From a virus: a stretch of DNA of 64,000 nucleotides. The notes under the pieces are model-generated. The model searched no databases. It was not told where the DNA came from and saw only the letters and a program-made list of their open reading frames with translations. The stretch covers positions 1 to 64,000 of the IMG/VR virus record IMGVR_UViG_3300024289_000019. One strand, given 5' to 3'. Positions 8,199 to 64,000 of this stretch are shown in pieces (position 1 is the stretch's first letter; every line of letters begins with the position of its first letter). Both the position numbers and the translations under genes were made by a program.

Positions 8199-10490
8199 AT
8201 GGCATACAAACAGTATGGAAATGTAATAAATACTTTAAACATAAAAGCAAAAAATATATTTAATTGGAACACAAATTATATAAGTTCCTATGGTTTTCGA
8301 AATTTAAATTCTAAAAATGCCCACACCGCAATTTCAAGATCTACAATTAAAGTTTCAAGTGGAACTGGACAATTACTTGGCTATGTCCCTTCTTTAGTTG
8401 GTTTAAATTATGACACAGCATCATTATTGTTAAGAAATGCTGGATTTACTCCTGATCCAAATTATATTTATTCTAACAGCATTGGTTTTCAACAATATCT
8501 TTCTCAGGGAGGATATGTTTCAGCTCAAGCACCTGCACCTTCAGCATCTTCTGGAACACTACTGGCATTTGGTTCAAGCGTGAGGCTTGATGTTATTCTC
8601 TATACATCTACGCCAATTGATACAAGCACGGTTCCAAATGCCCCACTATGGTCTAATGCTACATCTACAGATTCTGCTGTTACACTAACCTTTTTGACTC
8701 CAAGTAATGGTGGGTCTCCAATTTTAAGATATGAGTATAGTATAACAAATGGTGCAACTTGGATAAATATTAATTTACCAGTAAACAATACATTTACTGT
8801 TTCTGGTTTAACAAATAATGTTAACTATACATTTTATATAAGAGCAGTAAATGCAAAAGGAAATTCTGCATCTTCATCTGGAGTTACAAAAGCGCCCGTT
8901 GCATCAGGAGGAGGCGGAACAGCAGTTGTTCCAGGAACTCCATCTTTTACAGTATCATTTATTACCAATACATCTTTTAGAATAGATCTTACTCCACCAG
9001 CAAGCGATGGCGGATCTCAAATTATAAGATATCAACATTCTCTTAATAATGGTGTTACTTGGACAAATGATTTTACAAATACTGGACCTATTACAGTTTC
9101 AAATTTAACTCCAGGTACATCTTATCAAGTAGCATTAAGAGCAGTAAATGCAATTGGAAATGGTATTGCAACTGCTAGTCAAAATATTTCTACTACTCAA
9201 ATTGTCCCAGAATTAATTGGTATTTCTGTAAATGCTGCAAAAGCAATTATAACTGCATCTGGCTATGTTTATGGAGACGGAACAATTTCAGCCTCAAATA
9301 ACCAGTTTTATTTAGACTATCCTGGAGGATATGTTACAGCACAATCTCCTACTGCTGGAGCAAATTTGGCTGGCGGAGGAACAGTTAGATTAGACTTTAC
9401 ACAATATCTTTCAGCACCATCATATGGAACGGTACCAAATGTTATTGGACTTACCTTATCTGAAGCGGTTACAAGACTACAACAGGCTGGATATTCAAAT
9501 ATAACTCAAATAACAACATCTGATCCAAACAAAACATATCAACAAATTTATGCACAAAATCCAGTTTCTGGAACGGCAGCTCTTGTCAATACAGAAATTA
9601 CAATTAGCTATTCAGATTATACAGGTACTATATCAACACCAACAAATACAGTTAAGCCTTCCATTACTTATGACAATTTGTATGTAGGTTCTGTCTTTAA
9701 AGCAAAAGTAGGTTCTTGGACCGACAGTCCTACATCTTATGCATACCAATGGTATGATACAAATGGAAACAATTTTTTTAATGGAACATCGGTAAATTAC
9801 ACTGCAAATTCTTCTGCAATTTCTAGATCTATAAGACTAAAAGTTTCTGCTACAAATGCTGCTGGTACAAGCTCGTTTGTTTCTGCAGACAACGCATATG
9901 GTCCCATCAAAGATCTTCTACAACCTTCTACAGTTACTACTGCTTCAGTTAATGGAAGACAGTCTACGCAATTAAATATGCAATGGTTTGGAGGAGACTC
10001 ACCATTTTATTTTATTGGTATATATAAACCAGGAACATCTGCATATGTAACTACAAAAATTGTGTCAACAGAGTCTACATCTTTAACTGGATTAACTGCT
10101 GGAACTAACTATTATATACAAATATTTGGCAACAACAATAATGAATATTCTGCTAATTCTAAAACAAGCGAAGTAATATCTACAGTATTTGCAGCAGCTC
10201 CATCAAGTATGGTAATTAATTCTACAACAAAAAGTGGAAACAATATAAACTTTACAGCAACAAAAGGATCAAATACTTCGGCAATTTCATTAATATTACA
10301 AACAACAGGTGGAGGTTCTGTGTCAAACGCCATTGAACAAAAATTTGGATATGACCAATCTACTAATAATGTTTCTGGCTCTTATGATATAACAAATATT
10401 GCTTCTGGTACATATAATTTGGTTGGATATGGTTGGAACCCAGATTACGGTAACTCCCTACTTGCCTCAATTGTTCAGGTTACGATATAA
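8199..10490 (+). CDS. tail fibre with PASTA and fibronectin type III domains
   Basis: 763 residues. Order: short N-terminus; PASTA-like repeat about 60-132 (YVPSLVGLNYDTA); fibronectin III about 144-231 and 244-334; PASTA about 335-404 (VPELIGISVNAA); PASTA about 410-476 (VPNVIGLTLSEAV); Ig-like about 480-570; fibronectin III about 575-664; a terminal beta domain. PASTA repeats normally bind peptidoglycan in penicillin-binding proteins and serine/threonine kinases of Gram-positive bacteria, so here they may hold the tail to the cell wall. AAGGTGA precedes the ATG. Confidence 0.8.
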   Translation: MAYKQYGNVINTLNIKAKNIFNWNTNYISSYGFRNLNSKNAHTAISRSTIKVSSGTGQLLGYVPSLVGLNYDTASLLLRNAGFTPDPNYIYSNSIGFQQYLSQGGYVSAQAPAPSASSGTLLAFGSSVRLDVILYTSTPIDTSTVPNAPLWSNATSTDSAVTLTFLTPSNGGSPILRYEYSITNGATWININLPVNNTFTVSGLTNNVNYTFYIRAVNAKGNSASSSGVTKAPVASGGGGTAVVPGTPSFTVSFITNTSFRIDLTPPASDGGSQIIRYQHSLNNGVTWTNDFTNTGPITVSNLTPGTSYQVALRAVNAIGNGIATASQNISTTQIVPELIGISVNAAKAIITASGYVYGDGTISASNNQFYLDYPGGYVTAQSPTAGANLAGGGTVRLDFTQYLSAPSYGTVPNVIGLTLSEAVTRLQQAGYSNITQITTSDPNKTYQQIYAQNPVSGTAALVNTEITISYSDYTGTISTPTNTVKPSITYDNLYVGSVFKAKVGSWTDSPTSYAYQWYDTNGNNFFNGTSVNYTANSSAISRSIRLKVSATNAAGTSSFVSADNAYGPIKDLLQPSTVTTASVNGRQSTQLNMQWFGGDSPFYFIGIYKPGTSAYVTTKIVSTESTSLTGLTAGTNYYIQIFGNNNNEYSANSKTSEVISTVFAAAPSSMVINSTTKSGNNINFTATKGSNTSAISLILQTTGGGSVSNAIEQKFGYDQSTNNVSGSYDITNIASGTYNLVGYGWNPDYGNSLLASIVQVTI

Positions 10491-10499
10491 TGGAGAGCA

Positions 10500-12236
10500 A
10501 TGTCATATCATCTTAATGTAATTAAAGACAACCCCATGGCTTTCTGGCCTTTGGACGAGTCTATATTTTCTAATACAATTGACATTTCTGGTTCTGGAAA
10601 TAATGGATCTTATGTAGGAACATTTTCTGGAAACATAATGCCTTTAGTATATGGAGGAAGTAACGCAACTAAAATAACTAATACTAGTTATGTGACTTGT
10701 CCAGTAACAAAAAATTTTTATAAAGAAGTAGGCAAAGGTGGTTTTGCTACTTCAGACTATTCAGACAATAGCTTTTCTTTAGAAATCTGGCTAAAGCAAA
10801 ATATATCATCTGGTTCAATGACACCTATATTTGCAGACTCTACCAACAACATAGGGCTATTTTATTTTAATGGAAACATTATTTTTAAAGTAAACTCTCA
10901 ATCTTTAATTTATAAGCTATCATTTGCAGAAAAAGCAATGCATATTGTTGCCTGCTACGGAACTAATTCTATGTCTATATATGTAGATGGTTCATTAGCC
11001 ACATCCCGTTTGCTTGAGTCTTTTAAATTTACCAATAATACTTTGTCAATTGCTTGCGGTCCAACCAATGATGCTCAGGACTATTTTTTAATAGATGCCC
11101 CAGCCATTTATAGATATAAGCTTTCTGCAGAACAAATAGCAGAACATTTTAACTCTGGCCTAGATCATACACAGCCCATACATATTGTTGCTCCAGACAA
11201 TGGCATTTTATTAGGTTTACATGGCCAAAATATTGCACCAGTTTTTATATATCAATACAACAAAGACGTGCAATGGCAATCTTTTATAGATGAAAATACA
11301 TACTATGATGAAGTAAATAAATATATTTCATTTAAAAAATCTACAGGTCCAAAAACATTTATAATTAATGACGTATTTAACGTTCCAACTTCAACCCCAA
11401 TTATTAGTTCAAAAATAGAGTGGAAGGGGGATAAGAATATAACTGTGGAATCATCCATAGACAATACAACATGGGTACAATGTATAAACGGATCTTCCCT
11501 TCCACAATTTAATAAAGAAAACTATACTGGAGATAGCTTGGTATATATTAGAATCACAATGACAACCGATGATTCTGAAATTGATTTTCCAAGACTCTCA
11601 TTATTTAGAGTTTTGTTTTATTCTAAAAAAGAATTATATGCACATAATTATGGATACTACGCTACATCAGAAAAAGAATATGATGCTGCCAATTTTAGTT
11701 ATCCAGTTTTAATTAGACATCCAAATGTTGGTTTAAAAACTTGTGGCACAGGAGGATTTAAGGTAGATATAGATTTGGACATAAGCACTGTAGAGTTTAT
11801 GTTTACCCCGACCAGCCTTGCTGACAATATGGTTTTTTATTGTCCAGATCCAGAGTCTAAATTTGGATGGGCTGGAAACACAGCAATAAAATCCAATATA
11901 TCCAAGGTTTACATAAATGAAGAGGATGTCACCTCTGTTACTAATATTAAATCTAAATTTGTATTAAATGAGCCACATCACGTAGTGCTTGTTTTAAGTT
12001 CACCAGCACAAAATGTATTACAGTTTAATTACTTATCTAATACAAATTATGGCCCCGTATGTAATTATCAAAATATAGGTTTATACCAATACCAGTTTGT
12101 TCCAGGAGATGTTGCCTTCCATTACGATACATATTGTGGCAAACCCTCTATTTCTGTTTCAGATTCGTCACTGGGCCTGACAGAATCTGGAGTAACAACC
12201 TATAATCAAGACTATTTAATAGTATCCAGTGCATAA
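10500..12236 (+). CDS. LamG-type fibre protein, 578 aa
   Basis: Residues 1-225 form a LamG/pentraxin-like domain: AFWPLDES, SGSGNNGSYVG, FSLEIWLK, then MSIYVDGSLA and DAPAIYRYKLSAEQI at its end. Residues about 230-420 are beta-rich and unassigned. Residues about 420-578 look like a second LamG-like unit (STVEFMFTP, HHVVLVLS). It closes the fibre locus and is followed by an inverted repeat and a promoter. Surface glycan binding is the likely role. Confidence 0.7.
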   Translation: MSYHLNVIKDNPMAFWPLDESIFSNTIDISGSGNNGSYVGTFSGNIMPLVYGGSNATKITNTSYVTCPVTKNFYKEVGKGGFATSDYSDNSFSLEIWLKQNISSGSMTPIFADSTNNIGLFYFNGNIIFKVNSQSLIYKLSFAEKAMHIVACYGTNSMSIYVDGSLATSRLLESFKFTNNTLSIACGPTNDAQDYFLIDAPAIYRYKLSAEQIAEHFNSGLDHTQPIHIVAPDNGILLGLHGQNIAPVFIYQYNKDVQWQSFIDENTYYDEVNKYISFKKSTGPKTFIINDVFNVPTSTPIISSKIEWKGDKNITVESSIDNTTWVQCINGSSLPQFNKENYTGDSLVYIRITMTTDDSEIDFPRLSLFRVLFYSKKELYAHNYGYYATSEKEYDAANFSYPVLIRHPNVGLKTCGTGGFKVDIDLDISTVEFMFTPTSLADNMVFYCPDPESKFGWAGNTAIKSNISKVYINEEDVTSVTNIKSKFVLNEPHHVVLVLSSPAQNVLQFNYLSNTNYGPVCNYQNIGLYQYQFVPGDVAFHYDTYCGKPSISVSDSSLGLTESGVTTYNQDYLIVSSA

Positions 12237-12260
12237 TTTTGTCAAACTAGTTGACAAAAT
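12236..12260 (+). repeat. 10-bp perfect inverted repeat
   Basis: ATTTTGTCAA, a 5-base spacer (ACTAG), then TTGACAAAAT. It begins at the last base of the fibre gene stop. There is no T-run, so termination is uncertain; it could be an operator for the promoter 22 bases downstream. Confidence 0.6.
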
Positions 12261-12281
12261 CTGGACTTATACACATCAAAA

Positions 12282-12290
12282 TGGTAAAAT
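12282..12290 (+). promoter_or_regulatory. extended -10 of the portal operon, predicted leaderless
   Basis: TGGTAAAAT ends six bases before the ATG at 12297, so transcription should begin at or next to the start codon. No Shine-Dalgarno is present. Confidence 0.55.
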
Positions 12291-12296
12291 GAAGTA

Positions 12297-12626
12297 ATGG
12301 AAATCAAAGGTATAAACAAGCAGATAATCGAAGAGACCACTCTTGGAATCTATGTCTGGGAAATGCCAGACGGAAGATGGATTGGCGACGACGATGGCAA
12401 TTTTTTGTCAGTTACATCAATGAAAGGCAATAAGTCTAGAATGGATGCTCTGGCAAGGGAAGTTAGGTCTTATGGCATTTATGAAGGCCGTCCGCTATTT
12501 TTGTCAGGCAGACGAAAAATTGATGACGAAGAGTTTGAATATCAAAAGCAAAGATTAGAATGGGGTTTAACGCCAGACCCTTTAGATATTGGCGTATACA
12601 AAGATGAGGTCAGGAAAAACAAATAA
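12297..12626 (+). CDS. hypothetical protein before the portal
   Basis: 109 residues, charged, no membrane segment. IYVWEMPDGRWIGDDDGNF at the start looks like a small beta unit, followed by helices (residues 45-60 and 75-92). I do not recognise a family. Its last base is the first base of the portal start (TAATG), so it is translated together with the portal. No SD precedes the ATG; see the leaderless promoter. Confidence 0.7.
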   Translation: MEIKGINKQIIEETTLGIYVWEMPDGRWIGDDDGNFLSVTSMKGNKSRMDALAREVRSYGIYEGRPLFLSGRRKIDDEEFEYQKQRLEWGLTPDPLDIGVYKDEVRKNK

Positions 12627-14218
12627 TGAAAGTTCAATACGAAGAAGATCCAGTATTTCAAGACAATGATGTACGTGTAAGCACATATGCTGATATGGTT
12701 AGATTTTCAAAGTCTCAAGATGAAGTTACATCTGATGAATTTAAAATGTCTGCAGAAGAATTGCAAAAGGTTGCTGGCATGTCTCCAGCTTTTAGACGCA
12801 AACTTAGCAGAGAACTTTCAAAAGCTTTTACTGGTAAAGAAGGAGCGCAAACTCAACAGAGCCTATTGGCCCAAGCAATCACTGGATACGCTTTCCTAGA
12901 TGTTATTGAGCCAGTTTATAATTTAGAATATTTATCAAGACTATACGAAATATCAACATATAATTATGCTGCATGCAACGCAAAGACTTCAAACATTGTT
13001 GGTCTAGGTTGGCAGTTTATTGAAACAAGAAAAACAAATGACGCATTAGATAGCATTACAGATGAAAAGCAATTAGAAAGAGCAAGAAGAAAACTTTCAA
13101 AGCTTAGATCGGATTTGCAAGACTGGCTAGATCAATGTAATAGCGAAGATACATTTCAAGAAACTCTTATTAAGGTTTGGACTGATTATGAGTCTACTGG
13201 AAATGGCTATATAGAAATAGGAAGAACTGTTCGTGGAGATATCGGATATATTGGACATATTCCTGCGAAGACAATGCGAGTACGTAGATTAAGAGACGGC
13301 TTTGTTCAACTTCTTTATGGAAAGTTAGTATTCTTTAGAAACTATGGGGACCAAGAAACTCCTAATCCAATTTTAGGTGGAAGCGATAGACCTAATGAAA
13401 TTATTCATCTTAAAAAATACACTCCAGTAAATCAATATTATGGAATACCAGACATTATTGCTGCACAGAACTCTGTTGCTGGAAATGAATTTGCCGCTAA
13501 ATATAATTTAGATTATTTTGAGAATAAGGCTGTGCCAAGATATATTATTACCGCAAAAGGCGCAAAGCTTTCTCCAGAATCAGAAAGAAAATTATTAGAG
13601 TTCTTTCAGGTTGGATTAAAAGGAAAGAACCATAGATCCCTTTATATTCCACTTCCAGCAGATACTCCAGAGGCTAAAGTTGAATTTAAGATGGAACCAA
13701 TTGAGGCTGGAACTCAGGAAGGCTCTTTTGACAAATATAGAAAAGCTAATAGAGACGAAATGCTTTTAGCACATCGTGTTCCAATTAATAAGGTTGGTAC
13801 ACCAGAAGGTGTCAATTTAGCAGTTGCTCGTGATGCTGATAAAACATTTAAAGAGCAAGTATGTAGACCAGCCCAAATGAGGCTTGAAAAGAAATTAAAT
13901 GCAATTATTGAAGAAAAAACAGATGCTTTGATAATTAAATTTAACGAATTAAGCCTTACAGATGAAGATACTCAATCTAAGATTGATGAAAGATATTTGA
14001 GAATGCAGGTAATTACTCCTAATGAAGTTAGAATCAGAAAGGGTATGATCCCAATTGATGGAGGCGACGAAGTCGTTGATTTAAAGGGTCAAGATGCTGC
14101 CGAGCAGGCCGCTCAAGCAGGTAATACTAGACAGCGTTCTCAAAATAGACAGGCTAATTCCCCCGATATTTCTGGGGAGGGCAGAAATGCAAAAGGTGAT
14201 GGAAGGCAGGCAGAATAG
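12626..14218 (+). CDS. phage portal protein (PBSX/HK97 type)
   Basis: 530 residues. The portal is the dodecameric ring at the head vertex through which DNA is packaged and ejected. Family pattern: NYAACNAKTSNIVGLGWQF after an N-terminal arm, GNGYIEIGR, HIPAKTMRVRR, a NQYYGIPDIIAAQNSV crown segment, YFENKAVPRYII, then KGKNHRSLYIPLP. The C-terminal 50 residues are Gln/Ala-rich and probably disordered. Size fits the family. It overlaps the upstream gene by one base. A terminator stem begins inside its last codons, so it ends the operon. Confidence 0.92.
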   Translation: MKVQYEEDPVFQDNDVRVSTYADMVRFSKSQDEVTSDEFKMSAEELQKVAGMSPAFRRKLSRELSKAFTGKEGAQTQQSLLAQAITGYAFLDVIEPVYNLEYLSRLYEISTYNYAACNAKTSNIVGLGWQFIETRKTNDALDSITDEKQLERARRKLSKLRSDLQDWLDQCNSEDTFQETLIKVWTDYESTGNGYIEIGRTVRGDIGYIGHIPAKTMRVRRLRDGFVQLLYGKLVFFRNYGDQETPNPILGGSDRPNEIIHLKKYTPVNQYYGIPDIIAAQNSVAGNEFAAKYNLDYFENKAVPRYIITAKGAKLSPESERKLLEFFQVGLKGKNHRSLYIPLPADTPEAKVEFKMEPIEAGTQEGSFDKYRKANRDEMLLAHRVPINKVGTPEGVNLAVARDADKTFKEQVCRPAQMRLEKKLNAIIEEKTDALIIKFNELSLTDEDTQSKIDERYLRMQVITPNEVRIRKGMIPIDGGDEVVDLKGQDAAEQAAQAGNTRQRSQNRQANSPDISGEGRNAKGDGRQAE

Positions 14219-14250
14219 TAATTTTTTAGGCGACTATTCTTTGCCTTTTT
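14209..14250 (+). terminator. intrinsic terminator after the portal
   Basis: GGCA-GAATAGT (14209-14219) pairs with ACTATTC-TT-TGCC (14233-14245), leaving a 2-base bulge. TTTTT follows at 14246-14250. The left arm overlaps the portal stop codon. Confidence 0.65.
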
Positions 14251-14260
14251 AATTACTGGT

Positions 14261-14269
14261 TGCTATACT
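14261..14269 (+). promoter_or_regulatory. extended -10 of the protease/capsid operon
   Basis: TGCTATACT ends nine bases before the ATG at 14279. With transcription starting 6-8 bases after the box, the mRNA would have a leader of at most three bases and no Shine-Dalgarno. Confidence 0.6.
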
Positions 14270-14278
14270 TTACTTAGT

Positions 14279-15604
14279 ATGGACATTAAAAAAACTAATT
14301 GGTCTAGTGACGGCACCCGTCTATCTATTGGTGTCCCATTTACCAAGGTCAATAAAGAGAACAGAACTGTTTCTGGATTTGCTACATTAAACAATGTAGA
14401 CCAAACAGGAGATGTTGTCACAGCAGAAGCGAGTCTTAAAGCATTTGATGGATTTAAAGGAAACATCCGTGAAATGCATCAACCTATTGCGGTTGGAAAA
14501 GTTGTTTCATTTAAACCAGAAACATTTTTTGATGCAGTAACAAAAAGTTTTTATGATGGCGTATGGGTTAGCGCATATATTTCAAAAGGCGCACAAGACA
14601 CTTGGGAAAAAGTTCTAGACGGCACACTTTCTGGTTTTTCAATTGGTGGAAGAATTAAGGATGCGGAAACAGAAGTAAATAAAGCCGATGGAACATCAGT
14701 AAGATTTATTAAAGATTATGATCTTGTAGAATTGTCTCTTGTAGATTCTCCTGCAAATCAATTATGCAATATTCTTTCAATTGAAAAAGTAGATGGCAAA
14801 TTGGTTCTTAAAGGAATTTCAGCAGGAGTTACAGCAGCAAACGTATTTTTCTGTCAAACAGATGATGTTGTTGTTTCAGACACAGAAGAAGCACGAGAGT
14901 GCACAGCCTGTGGAAAACCAATGCAAGTAATTGGTTGGGTTGAAAACAATGATGTTAATAAAGCAGATTCAGTACGTTATGTTTATGAAACACATGTAAA
15001 AAAGATTTCTAGTTCTGCAAATGAACTTGAAAACAACACCGAAATAAATAAAGGAGGTACAACTATGTCAGATGAAACAATGACAGAAGCAACAGTTGAA
15101 GCAACCCCAGAAACTCCTGCAGCAGAAGTTGTAGCAGAGGCTACACCAGAAGCTCCAGCAGTCGAAGAGGCAGCATCAGAAGTTGCAGAAGCTGCACCAG
15201 CAGCAGAAGTTGCCGCCGATAATGCAGGAGAGCCAGCACCAGCAGTTGCAGAAGAAACAGATTTTGCAAAAATGATTGGTGATCTTAAGGGCTTCTTGTC
15301 CGATACACTTACCAAGGCAGCAGAAACAAATGCGGCACAGGTTGCTGCAGTTAAAGAAACTGTAGAATCCTTTAGCAAGAGTGTTGAAGCAAGAATTATC
15401 GATTTGGCAGAACAACATAATACACTAAGCGAAACCGTAAAAGGTATTCGTGAAACAATCGGTTCCGTAGAAAAGAGAATCGAAGCAGTCGAGGGTGATA
15501 CTGCAATTAAGAAGTCTGCTGACCTTGGCGGGTCAACAGAGTTTGTAAAGAAATCAAAATGGAGCGGCGCTTTCCTCGGTTCCGTGAACGACATTCTAAA
15601 CTAA
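14279..15604 (+). CDS. prohead protease fused to a scaffold-like C-terminus
   Basis: 441 residues. Residues 1-175 are an HK97-family prohead serine protease: MHQP with His67, GTLSGFSIGG with Ser118 or Ser121, and LVELSLVDSPAN with Glu151, in the order and spacing of the HK97 His/Ser/Glu residues. Cys192, Cys208 and Cys211 (CTAC) could form a small metal site. Residues 263-441 are Ala/Glu/Pro-rich, then coiled-coil (about 340-410), like a scaffold or delta domain. The C-terminus would be removed on maturation. No SD precedes the ATG, matching a nearly leaderless mRNA. Confidence 0.88.
   Translation: MDIKKTNWSSDGTRLSIGVPFTKVNKENRTVSGFATLNNVDQTGDVVTAEASLKAFDGFKGNIREMHQPIAVGKVVSFKPETFFDAVTKSFYDGVWVSAYISKGAQDTWEKVLDGTLSGFSIGGRIKDAETEVNKADGTSVRFIKDYDLVELSLVDSPANQLCNILSIEKVDGKLVLKGISAGVTAANVFFCQTDDVVVSDTEEARECTACGKPMQVIGWVENNDVNKADSVRYVYETHVKKISSSANELENNTEINKGGTTMSDETMTEATVEATPETPAAEVVAEATPEAPAVEEAASEVAEAAPAAEVAADNAGEPAPAVAEETDFAKMIGDLKGFLSDTLTKAAETNAAQVAAVKETVESFSKSVEARIIDLAEQHNTLSETVKGIRETIGSVEKRIEAVEGDTAIKKSADLGGSTEFVKKSKWSGAFLGSVNDILN
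15065..15604 (+). CDS. internal-start scaffold protein within the protease gene
   Basis: An in-frame ATG at 15065 (protease residue 263) has AAGGAGGT at 15051-15058, six bases upstream, one of the strongest ribosome sites in the window. The product would be 179 residues: the acidic Ala/Pro-rich linker and the coiled coil without the protease. This is the arrangement of lambda C and Nu3, where the scaffold is made from an internal start in the protease frame. Actual use of the start is inferred from the SD. Confidence 0.65.
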   Translation: MSDETMTEATVEATPETPAAEVVAEATPEAPAVEEAASEVAEAAPAAEVAADNAGEPAPAVAEETDFAKMIGDLKGFLSDTLTKAAETNAAQVAAVKETVESFSKSVEARIIDLAEQHNTLSETVKGIRETIGSVEKRIEAVEGDTAIKKSADLGGSTEFVKKSKWSGAFLGSVNDILN

Positions 15605-20725: not shown

Positions 20726-20752
20726 GATATGGAGTATCCAAGGAGGATAATT

Positions 20753-21085
20753 TTGGCAACAACAGTATATGACGTTCAAGAAATTGAATTGCAAAACGGA
20801 TCAAAGGTAAAACTAAAACCCCTTACCATTAAAGAACTTAGAAAGTTCATGACTGTCATTCAGAAGACAGCAGATGTTACAGGAGAAGAAGACACTCTAA
20901 ATATTTTAATTGAGGCTTGCGGAGTAGCTTTGGAAAAACAACTTCCAGAACTTGTTGCAAACAAAGATGCTTTTGAAGATGCGTTGGATGTTCCAACCAT
21001 TAATCGCATTCTTGAAGTTTGTGGCGGAATGAAGATGGACGACCCAAATCTACTGGCGGCAGCAGTTCTAGCTGGTCAGAACTAG
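20753..21085 (+). CDS. tail assembly chaperone, short form (G-like)
   Basis: 110 residues. The TTG at 20753 is chosen because AAGGAGG (20740-20746) lies six bases upstream; the in-frame ATG at 20729 has no such site. The N-terminal strand and helix (VQEIELQNGSKVKLKPLTI, then KELRKFMTVI) match the tail chaperones encoded before tape measures, which coat the tape measure during tail growth. The 3' end holds the frameshift site. Confidence 0.8.
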   Translation: MATTVYDVQEIELQNGSKVKLKPLTIKELRKFMTVIQKTADVTGEEDTLNILIEACGVALEKQLPELVANKDAFEDALDVPTINRILEVCGGMKMDDPNLLAAAVLAGQN

Positions 21086-31576: not shown

Positions 31577-31585
31577 TGGTATAAT
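31577..31585 (+). promoter_or_regulatory. extended -10, predicted leaderless start at 31592
   Basis: TGGTATAAT ends six bases before the ATG at 31592. It lies just past the upstream stop and would create an internal promoter for the distal tail genes. Confidence 0.5.
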
Positions 31586-31591
31586 AAAAAA

Positions 31592-32056
31592 ATGGCAAAA
31601 GATAATATTGCAACGAATGAAGTTAGTAAAAATGCTCCTATATTTTTAGCTGTTGGACAATACGAGCTTGCAGACCTAGATCCTTTATTTGCTAGAATTC
31701 TAGGTTCTGGTAAATTTAGTGGCTATGGAGCCGCAGGACTTTTTGGTTCTGGAGATGGTTTAGGTAATTGGGGAGGCAGCAGTGGAACTGGTACGGGAAC
31801 TGGAACGGGAACTGGTACGGGAACTGGAACGGGTCCTGGAGGAACATTAACTGTCCCACAAGGTCCAGGCAAACCATTCTTTCCAGAAGTTACTTTAACA
31901 TTTGATTACCCAGCTCCAGATTTATCAAGCATTGAAATTTATAAACAAGAAATGAATTATAGTACAAATCCGCCAACAGTAGATATTACTTTTAGAGTAA
32001 GAAATACAACTGGGTATCCAGTGGTTGGTTTAAATGCAAAGGTGCCAAAACAATGA
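31592..32056 (+). CDS. minor tail protein with a Gly-Thr repeat linker
   Basis: 154 residues from ATG 31592, which sits six bases after a TATAAT; a TTG at 31568 overlapping the previous stop is an alternative. Residues about 65-82 are a perfect Gly-Thr alternation encoded by a DNA repeat, separating an N-terminal helix-rich part from a C-terminal beta part (FPEVTLTFDYPAPDLSS). It is probably a flexible link at the tail tip. ATGA overlap with the next gene. Confidence 0.6.
   Translation: MAKDNIATNEVSKNAPIFLAVGQYELADLDPLFARILGSGKFSGYGAAGLFGSGDGLGNWGGSSGTGTGTGTGTGTGTGTGPGGTLTVPQGPGKPFFPEVTLTFDYPAPDLSSIEIYKQEMNYSTNPPTVDITFRVRNTTGYPVVGLNAKVPKQ
31784..31831 (+). repeat. 12-bp tandem repeat coding for Gly-Thr
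   Basis: Four units of 12 bases, alternating GGAACTGGTACG and GGAACTGGAACG, so effectively two copies of a 24-base unit. It stays in frame, so a length change in multiples of 12 would alter only the linker. Confidence 0.85.
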
Positions 32057-54792: not shown

Positions 54793-55116
54793 ATGCTAGA
54801 GCCAGTATTTGCAGACATGAAGGAATTTAAGTGTGACGACCTTTATTTATTAACTGTTGGAACGGAAGCGGGTAGAGAAATTTATAATGCTTGCCACGAA
54901 ATTGCTCACATGCTAATTAAAAAGAACATTGCTTATGGCAACTCCGCCCTTGACCCAGTTAGAGTATTTTCAAAAGCGGGGCCACGAGAGCAGTTATATG
55001 TTCGTATTGATGATAAATTAAATAGGTTAATGAAGGGTACAGAATACCCAGGCGACAACGATATTGATGATTTGATTGGATATCTAATTCTGCTAAAAAT
55101 AGCTAAATCGATTTGA
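54793..55116 (+). CDS. Nmad1/DUF1599-like protein
   Basis: 107 residues. KKNIAYGNSALDPVRVFSKA, RIDDKLNRLMKG and NDIDDLIGYLILLKIA form the pattern of the nucleotide modification-associated domain 1 family, mostly alpha-helical, with a D-x-x-x-DL metal-like site. The family is linked to modified nucleotide metabolism; role here unproven. Its end is followed by a palindrome and the terminase promoter. Confidence 0.6.
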   Translation: MLEPVFADMKEFKCDDLYLLTVGTEAGREIYNACHEIAHMLIKKNIAYGNSALDPVRVFSKAGPREQLYVRIDDKLNRLMKGTEYPGDNDIDDLIGYLILLKIAKSI

Positions 55117-55120
55117 TTTT

Positions 55121-55141
55121 TTAGTCGACTAAGATTATAAT
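55121..55141 (+). promoter_or_regulatory. 12-bp palindrome and -10 box before the terminase genes
   Basis: TTAGTCGACTAA (55121-55132) is a perfect palindrome. TATAAT follows at 55136-55141 and ends six bases before the ATG at 55148, so a leaderless terminase mRNA is predicted. A protein bound to the palindrome would cover the promoter spacer. Confidence 0.6.
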
Positions 55142-55147
55142 ATTAAT

Positions 55148-55687
55148 ATGGAAATAGAATTAGCAGACCATTTTGATAAAATGAACAAGGTGGTTTCAGA
55201 ACTACTAAAGGGTAATAACCCAACTCAAATTGCTACAATAACTGGATACAAAAGAGCAGAAGTACTGGACTTAATAGACGAATGGAAGAGCGTTGTCCAT
55301 AACGACTCAAGCGCAAGAGAACGTGCTAAAGAGGCTGTCTCTGGTGCTGATCAACATTATGCAATGCTTATTAAAGAGGCATGGAGCACTGTAGAGGCTG
55401 CCGATGCTCAAGGTCAACTTAATGTTAAGGCTAATACATTAAAGCTAATTGCTGATATTGAAACAAAAAGAATTGGCATGCTTCAGCAGGTAGGGCTATT
55501 AGACAATGCAGAGTTGGCAAATCAAATTGCAGAAACTGAAAAGAAACAAGAAATTCTTGTAGGCATATTAAAAGAAGTTACTGCTGGTTGTCCAAAATGT
55601 AAACTAGATGTTGCAAAAAGATTGTCGCAGATTACTGGAGTGGTAGAACCAGTTGTAATTGATACAGAGGAAGCAAGTGGATCTTAA
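55148..55687 (+). CDS. terminase small subunit
   Basis: 179 residues. N-terminal helix-turn-helix (LLKGNNPTQIATITGYKRAEVLDLIDEW), a helical middle with ARERAKEAVSGADQHY and LKLIADIETKRIGML, and a C-terminal CPKC-containing region. It recognises the packaging site and recruits the large subunit, whose gene overlaps it. No SD before the ATG; see the leaderless promoter. Confidence 0.8.
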   Translation: MEIELADHFDKMNKVVSELLKGNNPTQIATITGYKRAEVLDLIDEWKSVVHNDSSARERAKEAVSGADQHYAMLIKEAWSTVEAADAQGQLNVKANTLKLIADIETKRIGMLQQVGLLDNAELANQIAETEKKQEILVGILKEVTAGCPKCKLDVAKRLSQITGVVEPVVIDTEEASGS

Positions 55688-59095: not shown

Positions 59096-59181
59096 TATAA
59101 TTATATTGTGTACCGCCTAAGTTGCGGACATAAGGGCCCTGGGCATGGCCAAGTAAACTGCCCATTTTATAATGGAGAGCC
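59096..59181 (+). promoter_or_regulatory. promoter and structured leader before the oxygenase
   Basis: TATAAT at 59096-59101. The following 80 bases hold CCGC/GCGG (59113-59116 with 59124-59127), GGGCCC, and TGGGCA/TGCCCA (59140-59145 with 59159-59164) followed by TTTT. A second TATAAT lies at 59168-59173, close to the ATG at 59182. The layout suggests an attenuated long RNA plus a short one. Confidence 0.45.
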
Positions 59182-59916
59182 ATGGAGATTATTGATTTAG
59201 AGCAACCAAATGTATTAATCATTAAAAATTTCTTTTCTAAAGAAGAAGTTGAAAAAGTTTTAATTCCAATGAAAGAAACTTCTGAAGAAATTTGGAATCT
59301 TCAGGGTGAAGCCAAAAAAGAAGATTCTACTAGAATTAAAAGAATGTCAGAAAGACTTATTGAATCTGATAACATGAATTGGTATGGAATGACTATGGAT
59401 ATTACAAGTCGTGTTGATGCCTATAGAATGTATTCACATCTCCCACATGCTTTTTTAATAGAAAAAGAGCAACAAATAAAAAAAATAATAACAAATAAAT
59501 TTAAACAAAATGTTGTTTTACAGCTCTCTGGTCTTCATAGGTGGAGGCCAGGAAGAGAGCAAAAGCCTCATATAGATTATTATGATTCTAGTGAACAGCA
59601 TGATTTTGATATGTTAGAAAAATATAATCTGACAAAAGATCGTTTAGAAGAATTTGAGCATTCTTTTAATGACAAACATTATTCTTCATTAGTTTATTTT
59701 AATGAAGATTATATGGGTGGAGAACTATATATGCCTCAATGGGATTGGGAAATAAAACCTGAGACAGGTATGTTAATTGCTTTTGAGGGAAATCAAAATC
59801 ATTTACACGGAGTAAAGATGATGGAAGAAGGAATAAGATATACTTGGTCTATTTTTTGGACAAGATTTGAGTGGGCTATGAAAAACAAAATTAAAGATAG
59901 TAAAGTGAGCATGTAA
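59182..59916 (+). CDS. 2-oxoglutarate/Fe(II) oxygenase
   Basis: 244 residues. HxD at His130-Asp132 (KPHIDYYDS), distal His at 209 (NHLHGV), Arg219 and WSIFWTRF at the end make the prolyl-4-hydroxylase-like facial triad and 2-oxoglutarate site. Phages carry many such enzymes, acting on DNA, proteins or surface molecules. Substrate is unknown here. Ribosome site GGAGAG stands close to the ATG. Confidence 0.82.
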   Translation: MEIIDLEQPNVLIIKNFFSKEEVEKVLIPMKETSEEIWNLQGEAKKEDSTRIKRMSERLIESDNMNWYGMTMDITSRVDAYRMYSHLPHAFLIEKEQQIKKIITNKFKQNVVLQLSGLHRWRPGREQKPHIDYYDSSEQHDFDMLEKYNLTKDRLEEFEHSFNDKHYSSLVYFNEDYMGGELYMPQWDWEIKPETGMLIAFEGNQNHLHGVKMMEEGIRYTWSIFWTRFEWAMKNKIKDSKVSM

Positions 59917-62314: not shown

Positions 62315-62320
62315 TATAAT
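62315..62320 (+). promoter_or_regulatory. -10 box, predicted leaderless lipoprotein mRNA
   Basis: TATAAT ends six bases before the ATG at 62327. It is preceded by AAGG rather than TGN. No SD. Confidence 0.5.
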
Positions 62321-62326
62321 AGTGGT

Positions 62327-62545
62327 ATGAAAAGAATAATTGCTATTGCTTTATCAGGTCTATTAATGCTATCATTAAGTAGCTGTGGCTTTCAGGGTTC
62401 ATACAGATACCCATGCCAAGACCCTGCGAATTGGGAGAAGGCGGAATGCAATCCTCCAATTTGTGAAGCAACAGGAACATGCACTAAAGATATAATTGGT
62501 AAAGCATCAACTACTACTACTGAAACAGGTACAACAAATGGCTAG
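62327..62545 (+). CDS. small lipoprotein
   Basis: 72 residues. Signal peptide with lipobox LSSC (Cys20) after a hydrophobic stretch (AIALSGLLMLSL). The mature part has five further Cys and a Thr-rich tail. It would attach to the outer face of the membrane. Roles for phage lipoproteins include lysis help and blocking a second infection; neither is shown here. Overlaps the next gene by eight bases. Confidence 0.78.
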   Translation: MKRIIAIALSGLLMLSLSSCGFQGSYRYPCQDPANWEKAECNPPICEATGTCTKDIIGKASTTTTETGTTNG

Positions 62546-63956: not shown

Positions 63957-64000
63957 TCTAGGCGTAGACTCAGATGATTTTGAATGGTGGCATCTAGCGG
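63937..64000 (+). CDS. start of a possible WhiB-like regulator (cut by the window end)
   Basis: An ATG at 63937 overlaps the previous gene by 20 bases and stays open to the window end. The visible residues include DSDDFEWWHLA, which resembles the first part of WhiB iron-sulfur regulators before their first Cys. The Cys residues would lie beyond the window. Tentative. Confidence 0.3.
   Translation, partial: MSNILNDLGVDSDDFEWWHLA

Follow-up and report, generated by a model that had tools for sequence, protein, structure and literature searches.

Host-type promoters placed directly in front of the start codon very probably yield leaderless or near-leaderless mRNAs at several genes of the virus described here. 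The window, by which we mean the whole stretch of DNA that was analysed, covers the first 64 kb of an IMG/VR virus record of freshwater origin that is 112,301 bases long. An earlier note on this DNA had proposed leaderless translation, and comparison strongly supports this reading in the form of leaderless or near-leaderless mRNAs (0–3 nt of leader), through the boxes of orthologs, the cultured phages and a peak of boxes at gap 6 in three genomes. The gap is given throughout as the number of bases between the end of the −10 box and the ATG.

In the proposed mechanism, ordinary promoters of the sigma-A/sigma-70 type would make the transcript begin on the A of the start codon or no more than about three bases from it. 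With six bases between box and ATG, the usual transcription start falls on this A, and with 7–9 bases it falls on the A or up to about three bases upstream. The resulting leaderless or near-leaderless mRNAs would be translated without a Shine-Dalgarno (SD) sequence by the actinobacterial host, like the leaderless genes of the host itself. The transcript ends, the use of the housekeeping sigma factor of the host and initiation by 70S ribosomes are steps that we infer. A phage sigma factor was sought and no Sigma70_r2 domain was found in the record, which may be incomplete; the host housekeeping sigma factor is therefore the simplest inference. The geometry of the boxes here agrees with that of mapped promoters of M. 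tuberculosis, which have TANNNT centred 7–12 bp before the start site (PMC3898074), and for mycobacteria a 5′-terminal ATG or GTG has been found both necessary and sufficient (PMC4633059).

The virus and its probable host

The window has a GC content of 36%, and its plus strand carries most of the genes. The portal protein is about 60% identical to its counterpart in the Streptomyces phage BillNye (Stanwilliamsviridae), and the gene order around the portal, the neighbourhood that was compared, resembles that of Stanwilliamsviridae phages. The phage records matching the proteins encoded at 12297 and 55148 all belong to Streptomyces or Rhodococcus phages (133 of 133 and 134 of 134, respectively). 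A WhiB-like gene (record positions 63985–64158; Pfam PF02467, 43.9 bits, above the cut-off) crosses the window end, with 63985–64000 lying inside the window. WhiB is described as exclusive to Actinobacteriota and has been proposed as an actinophage marker (PMC10202952). Because the relatives infect Streptomyces and Rhodococcus and a WhiB-like gene is present, the actinobacterial host suggested by the earlier note is well supported. Lsr2 was also looked for, and none was found. The portal encoded on contig CAILUB010000281.1 (L279) is 76% identical to that of this actinophage; the contig was binned as a Cytophagaceae genome, probably in error.

Predicted promoter boxes at the named starts and in their orthologs

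The five starts named before all have ATG as start codon. At 12297, 31592, 55148 and 62327 the −10 box ends exactly six bases ahead of the ATG, the coordinates proving exact, and the gap of nine reported for 14279 was confirmed, with TATACT at 14264–14269. The four starts at gap 6 had been described as lacking an SD, and no usable one is present at any of the five: a scan returned none at 12297, 14279, 31592 and 55148, and the AAGG that it picked up at 62327 shares bases with the −10 region. Hexamers resembling a −35 element lie exactly 17 bp upstream of the box at 12297 (TGGACT), 14279 (TTGCCT) and 55148 (TTGATT), and an extended −10 (TGG preceding the box) is present at 12297 and 31592. The constant six-base gap did not hold as a general rule, the orthologs of 12297, 14279 and 55148 ranging from 6 to 9. 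A strict gap of six is a rule only for the 62327 family, but the close box-to-ATG spacing as such is conserved. The gaps of 8–9 bases in many orthologs of 12297, 14279 and 55148 leave room for a short leader of a few bases. For these comparisons, ortholog upstream regions came from related viral contigs, with redundancy removed at 85%.

At 62327, the −10 box TATAAT (62315–62320, plus strand) lies within an intergenic gap of 14 nt and is followed by AGTGGT and the ATG. The gene (62327–62545, plus strand), predicted to be leaderless, encodes a 72-aa putative lipoprotein, and this earlier designation agrees with the translation, which reads as a signal peptide ending in LSSC. Its start is conserved in relatives. 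All 28 non-redundant orthologs have TATAAT, 27 of them at gap 6 and the remaining one at gap 7, although the 45-nt upstream regions average only 47% identity. No box precedes the deposited starts of the lipoprotein homologs in DSL-LC01 and MW202675. Since the gene begins 14 nt past the preceding stop, coupled re-initiation on a longer mRNA could contribute too.

The gene at 12297 (12297–12626, plus strand) had been taken for the portal gene, which in fact occupies 12626–14218; the former belongs to phrog_9394 (E 1.1e-38), a conserved protein without assigned function, and is predicted to be leaderless and the first gene of the portal operon. Its extended −10 box TAAAAT (12285–12290, plus strand) is followed by GAAGTA and the ATG, and around its −35-like TGGACT (12262–12267, plus strand) CTGGACTT is kept in most orthologs. 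Gaps of 6, 7, 8 and 9 occur in 2, 1, 16 and 4 of 24 non-redundant orthologs, respectively, and one has no box. The stop codon of this gene overlaps the portal start (TAATG), and the same arrangement is seen in the cultured phages. The portal start, coupled to the preceding gene, served as a control and has no such box in 18 of 18 orthologs. A near-perfect palindrome, TTTTGTCAAACTAGTTGACAAAA, at 12237–12259 follows closely on the stop codon of the gene before 12297 and lies ahead of the promoter; it may be a terminator or an operator.

The gene at 14279 (14279–15604, plus strand; phrog_9427, E 1.7e-128) encodes the head maturation protease and is predicted to be near-leaderless. TATTTGC is kept in orthologs at its −35-like TTGCCT (14241–14246, plus strand), and its −10 box TATACT also lies on the plus strand. 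Sixteen of 19 non-redundant orthologs have a gap of 7 and three a gap of 9. This gene and that at 12297 each begin 60 nt past the preceding stop.

The gene at 55148 (55148–55687, plus strand; phrog_9507), likewise predicted to be leaderless, adjoins the large terminase gene downstream. It had been called the terminase small subunit, a name that several deposited homologs also bear (small subunit-like). The −35-like TTGATT (55113–55118, plus strand) precedes a −10 box TATAAT (55136–55141, plus strand), which is followed by ATTAAT and the ATG. The gap is 6 in two, 7 in two and 8 in seven of 11 non-redundant orthologs. This arrangement was not found at the homologs in BillNye or Weasels2, whose terminase small-subunit start, unlike that predicted here for 55148, is not leaderless. 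The spacer between −35 and −10 contains the palindrome TTAGTCGACTAA (55120–55131), of which AGTYRACT is kept in many relatives; as a genome-wide operator AGTYRACT was rejected, with 13 copies in the record against 9.3 expected and thus no enrichment. In BillNye, the deposited GTG of the terminase small-subunit homolog (L278 7941) lies about 20 codons upstream of the point where similarity to the family starts, and ATGAGTAAG nearer in looks like the better start.

The candidate at 31592 is the weakest of the leaderless candidates and is unproven, because its box sits in frame within a longer ORF from TTG 31568 and the only relatives found are 100% identical. The −10-like TATAAT (31580–31585, plus strand), followed by AAAAAA and the ATG, may be coding rather than promoter. 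The gene (31592–32056, plus strand) encodes a 154-aa protein with a Gly-Thr repeat, and its description as a tail-tip gene could not be upheld, as the protein matched no family.

The comparison with cultured phages covered eight Streptomyces phages and two Rhodococcus phages. At the protease gene the gap is 6 in BillNye, Moab, Faust, Annadreamy, Braelyn and Coruscant and 9 in both Rhodococcus phages, as in the window, while in Wofford and Tomas a gap of 6 points to the second ATG, which matches the family N-terminus. At the phrog_9394 gene BillNye, Wofford, Coruscant, Dorin and Weasels2 have a gap of 6, and Moab, Faust and Annadreamy one of 7; Braelyn and Tomas have an ATG six bases past a weaker box, a few codons from the deposited start. 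Judged by the ATG six bases past the box (deposited starts at L285 6334, L291 6355 and 4022, and L282 4001), the deposited starts of the protease in Wofford and Tomas and of the phrog_9394 gene in Tomas and Braelyn are probably a few codons off. Many boxes of the cultured phages are not exact TATAAT, and what they share is the spacing and the general −10 pattern. As for control genes, the cultured phages have no box at the portal or major capsid starts, and in every one of them an SD (GGAGGTGA and similar) precedes the major capsid gene.

Spacing counts, further sites and other explanations

In the whole 112-kb record, an exact TATAAT at gap 6 precedes 5 of 141 predicted starts, against 0.13 expected from 1000 dinucleotide shuffles. 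The five are 31592, 55148, 62327, 89922 (minus strand) and 102974, the 31592 start having been shifted from the longer TTG ORF, a choice that favours this count. None of the 1000 shuffles reaches five at gap 6, and a count of five is not attained by any gap in any shuffle; the constant gap had been thought unlikely to arise by chance, and this test against shuffled sequence agrees. For BillNye and Weasels2, deposited starts were used, which avoid the choice made at 31592, and up to one mismatch was allowed in the box. The boxes at gap 6 then number 7 in BillNye, where 0.29 are expected, and 9 in Weasels2, where the expectation is 0.84; in each case 0 of 300 shuffles reach the count. No box at gap 6 was found at the deposited starts in the first 50 kb of T4 and of SPO1.

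A further count was made in 267 related viral loci (2.1 Mb), leaving out the query genes and de-duplicating start peptides. To be counted, TATAAT had to precede an ATG that had an in-frame stop upstream of it and a reading frame of 60 codons or more. Gap 6 accounts for 17 cases, every other gap beyond 0 has at most 3, and permuted hexamers gave 1, 1 and 0 at gap 6. A looser count in related contigs produced a secondary peak at gap 9, which was mostly in-frame coding and fell to background once the upstream in-frame stop was required. Orthologs and contigs are kin by descent, so these counts do not represent independent events.

At least two more candidate leaderless sites, 89922 (minus strand) and 102974, were missed by the earlier note, and 10500 is a probable additional one. 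The box at 10500 (TATAAT, 10486–10491, plus strand) lies eight bases ahead of the ATG with GGAGAGCA between them, and the GGAG in this interval makes the SD status ambiguous. Relatives of 10500 mostly have gaps of 6–8, and some are without the box and have an SD instead. In the cultured phages the homolog (LamG-like in Coruscant), upstream of the phrog_9394 gene, stands at gap 6 in Braelyn, Wofford, Coruscant, Tomas and Dorin, with gaps of 7–10 in others. Most relatives of 102974, itself at gap 6, have gaps of 6–8, and two distant ones have a box 22 bases upstream together with an SD-like sequence. For 89922, also at gap 6, no relatives were found in the related loci examined, and a gap of 9 is found at 64965. 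The variation within the 10500 and 102974 families looks like switches between leaderless and SD-led starts, and such changes have been described for actinobacterial genes (PMC3160421).

Other starts were set aside. The ATG at 20729, an apparent gap-3 site, is probably a false start, and its relatives have a TTG behind AGGAGG that equals 20753 here. The start at 59182 (TATAATGGAGAGCC) is more likely SD-led, as its relatives keep TTGGAGA and lose the box. Just ahead of the ATG, 10486–10499 and 59168–59181 share TATAATGGAGAGC, a −10 box fused with an SD-like GGAG; the box is kept by the relatives of 10500, and only TTGGAGA by those of 59182. The TATATT at gap 6 of 41721 had no supporting evidence and was left out of the counts.

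The boxes could in principle have arisen by chance, the genome being AT-rich, and their distance of six bases from the ATG would then be a coincidence: TATAAT is frequent, with 106 copies on one strand of the record and 102 on the other, and some ATGs will follow it at any gap. Such a chance origin is hardly credible in view of the shuffles, none of which reaches five, and of the box being kept in orthologs despite diverged flanks; furthermore, the gap-6 peak recurs in two other genomes and in unrelated genes of related contigs, and T4, of similar base composition, is without gap-6 boxes. It would be equally surprising if the constrained element were the binding site of a regulator and not a −10 box. 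The conserved palindrome upstream of the box in the 55148 promoter could speak for such a site, but its core is not enriched in the record, and the hexamer itself fits the −10 consensus, shows the kind of variation usual for such boxes (TAAAAT, TAGAAT, TACAAT, TATTAT) and stands 17 bp from the −35-like hexamers.

Alternatively, the promoters may be real and the true translation starts further downstream, so that the mRNAs have leaders, as in the one window case of 20729, where the real start is probably the TTG at 20753 behind AGGAGG. For the genes at issue this is very improbable: the orthologs align from the first residues, the first residues of 62327 are needed for the signal peptide, and the protease ATG six bases from the box in Wofford and Tomas fits the family N-terminus. 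Translation mainly from long readthrough mRNAs by coupling, with the promoter as a minor internal start, would suit the dense packing of genes on one strand and the 14 nt between 62327 and the upstream stop. It is nevertheless unlikely, given the 60 nt that separate 12297 and 14279 from the preceding stops, the lack of an SD at any of the starts and the constraint on the box while its flanks diverge. Host-type promoters yielding leaderless or near-leaderless mRNAs remain the preferred reading. An extension of it, which we put forward as speculation with a low probability, is that leaderless initiation constitutes a selected and conserved expression class, in which the first genes of the head and packaging operons would be held leaderless across Streptomyces, Rhodococcus and freshwater actinophages so as to have precedence in translation during one particular phase of infection, such as a time at which 70S ribosomes accumulate.

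Relation to known leaderless systems and significance

Actinobacteria, and a few phage genes, are already known to use this mechanism. Leaderless genes of M. tuberculosis, M. smegmatis and Streptomyces coelicolor have the same close −10 box and no SD; about a quarter of the M. tuberculosis genes with a primary start site are leaderless (PMC3898074), and more than 20% of genes are predicted to be leaderless in Actinobacteria (PMC3160421). In contrast to these, the present genes belong to a phage, and the arrangement, as read from the sequence, is kept at particular virion genes. The "−10 region adjacent to ORF" of Deinococcus-Thermus is likewise a −10 motif beside an ORF that acts as a promoter for leaderless mRNA, in a different phylum and tested there with reporters, whereas here the evidence is sequence comparison (PMC12340547). 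Leaderless mRNAs of lambda and P2 in E. coli are also phage genes transcribed from the start codon (PMC4633059), but they are isolated cases, while here several genes per genome are concerned, mostly for the virion and packaging. The Stanwilliamsviridae BillNye, Faust, Wofford and Coruscant and the Rhodococcus phages Weasels2 and Dorin share with this virus the gene order in the portal region and, at two or three of the corresponding genes, the distance from promoter to ATG; the GC content of relatives is higher in the two measured (41–53%) than in this virus. The open-access literature searched yielded no account of leaderless virion genes as a family-wide trait of these actinophages.

For this widespread actinophage lineage, the comparative evidence points to expression of several genes of the virion and of packaging as leaderless mRNAs. 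The box-to-ATG spacing offers a practical rule to correct start codons, for example those of the protease in Wofford and Tomas. The culturable Streptomyces and Rhodococcus phages, in turn, allow the direct study of leaderless translation during infection.
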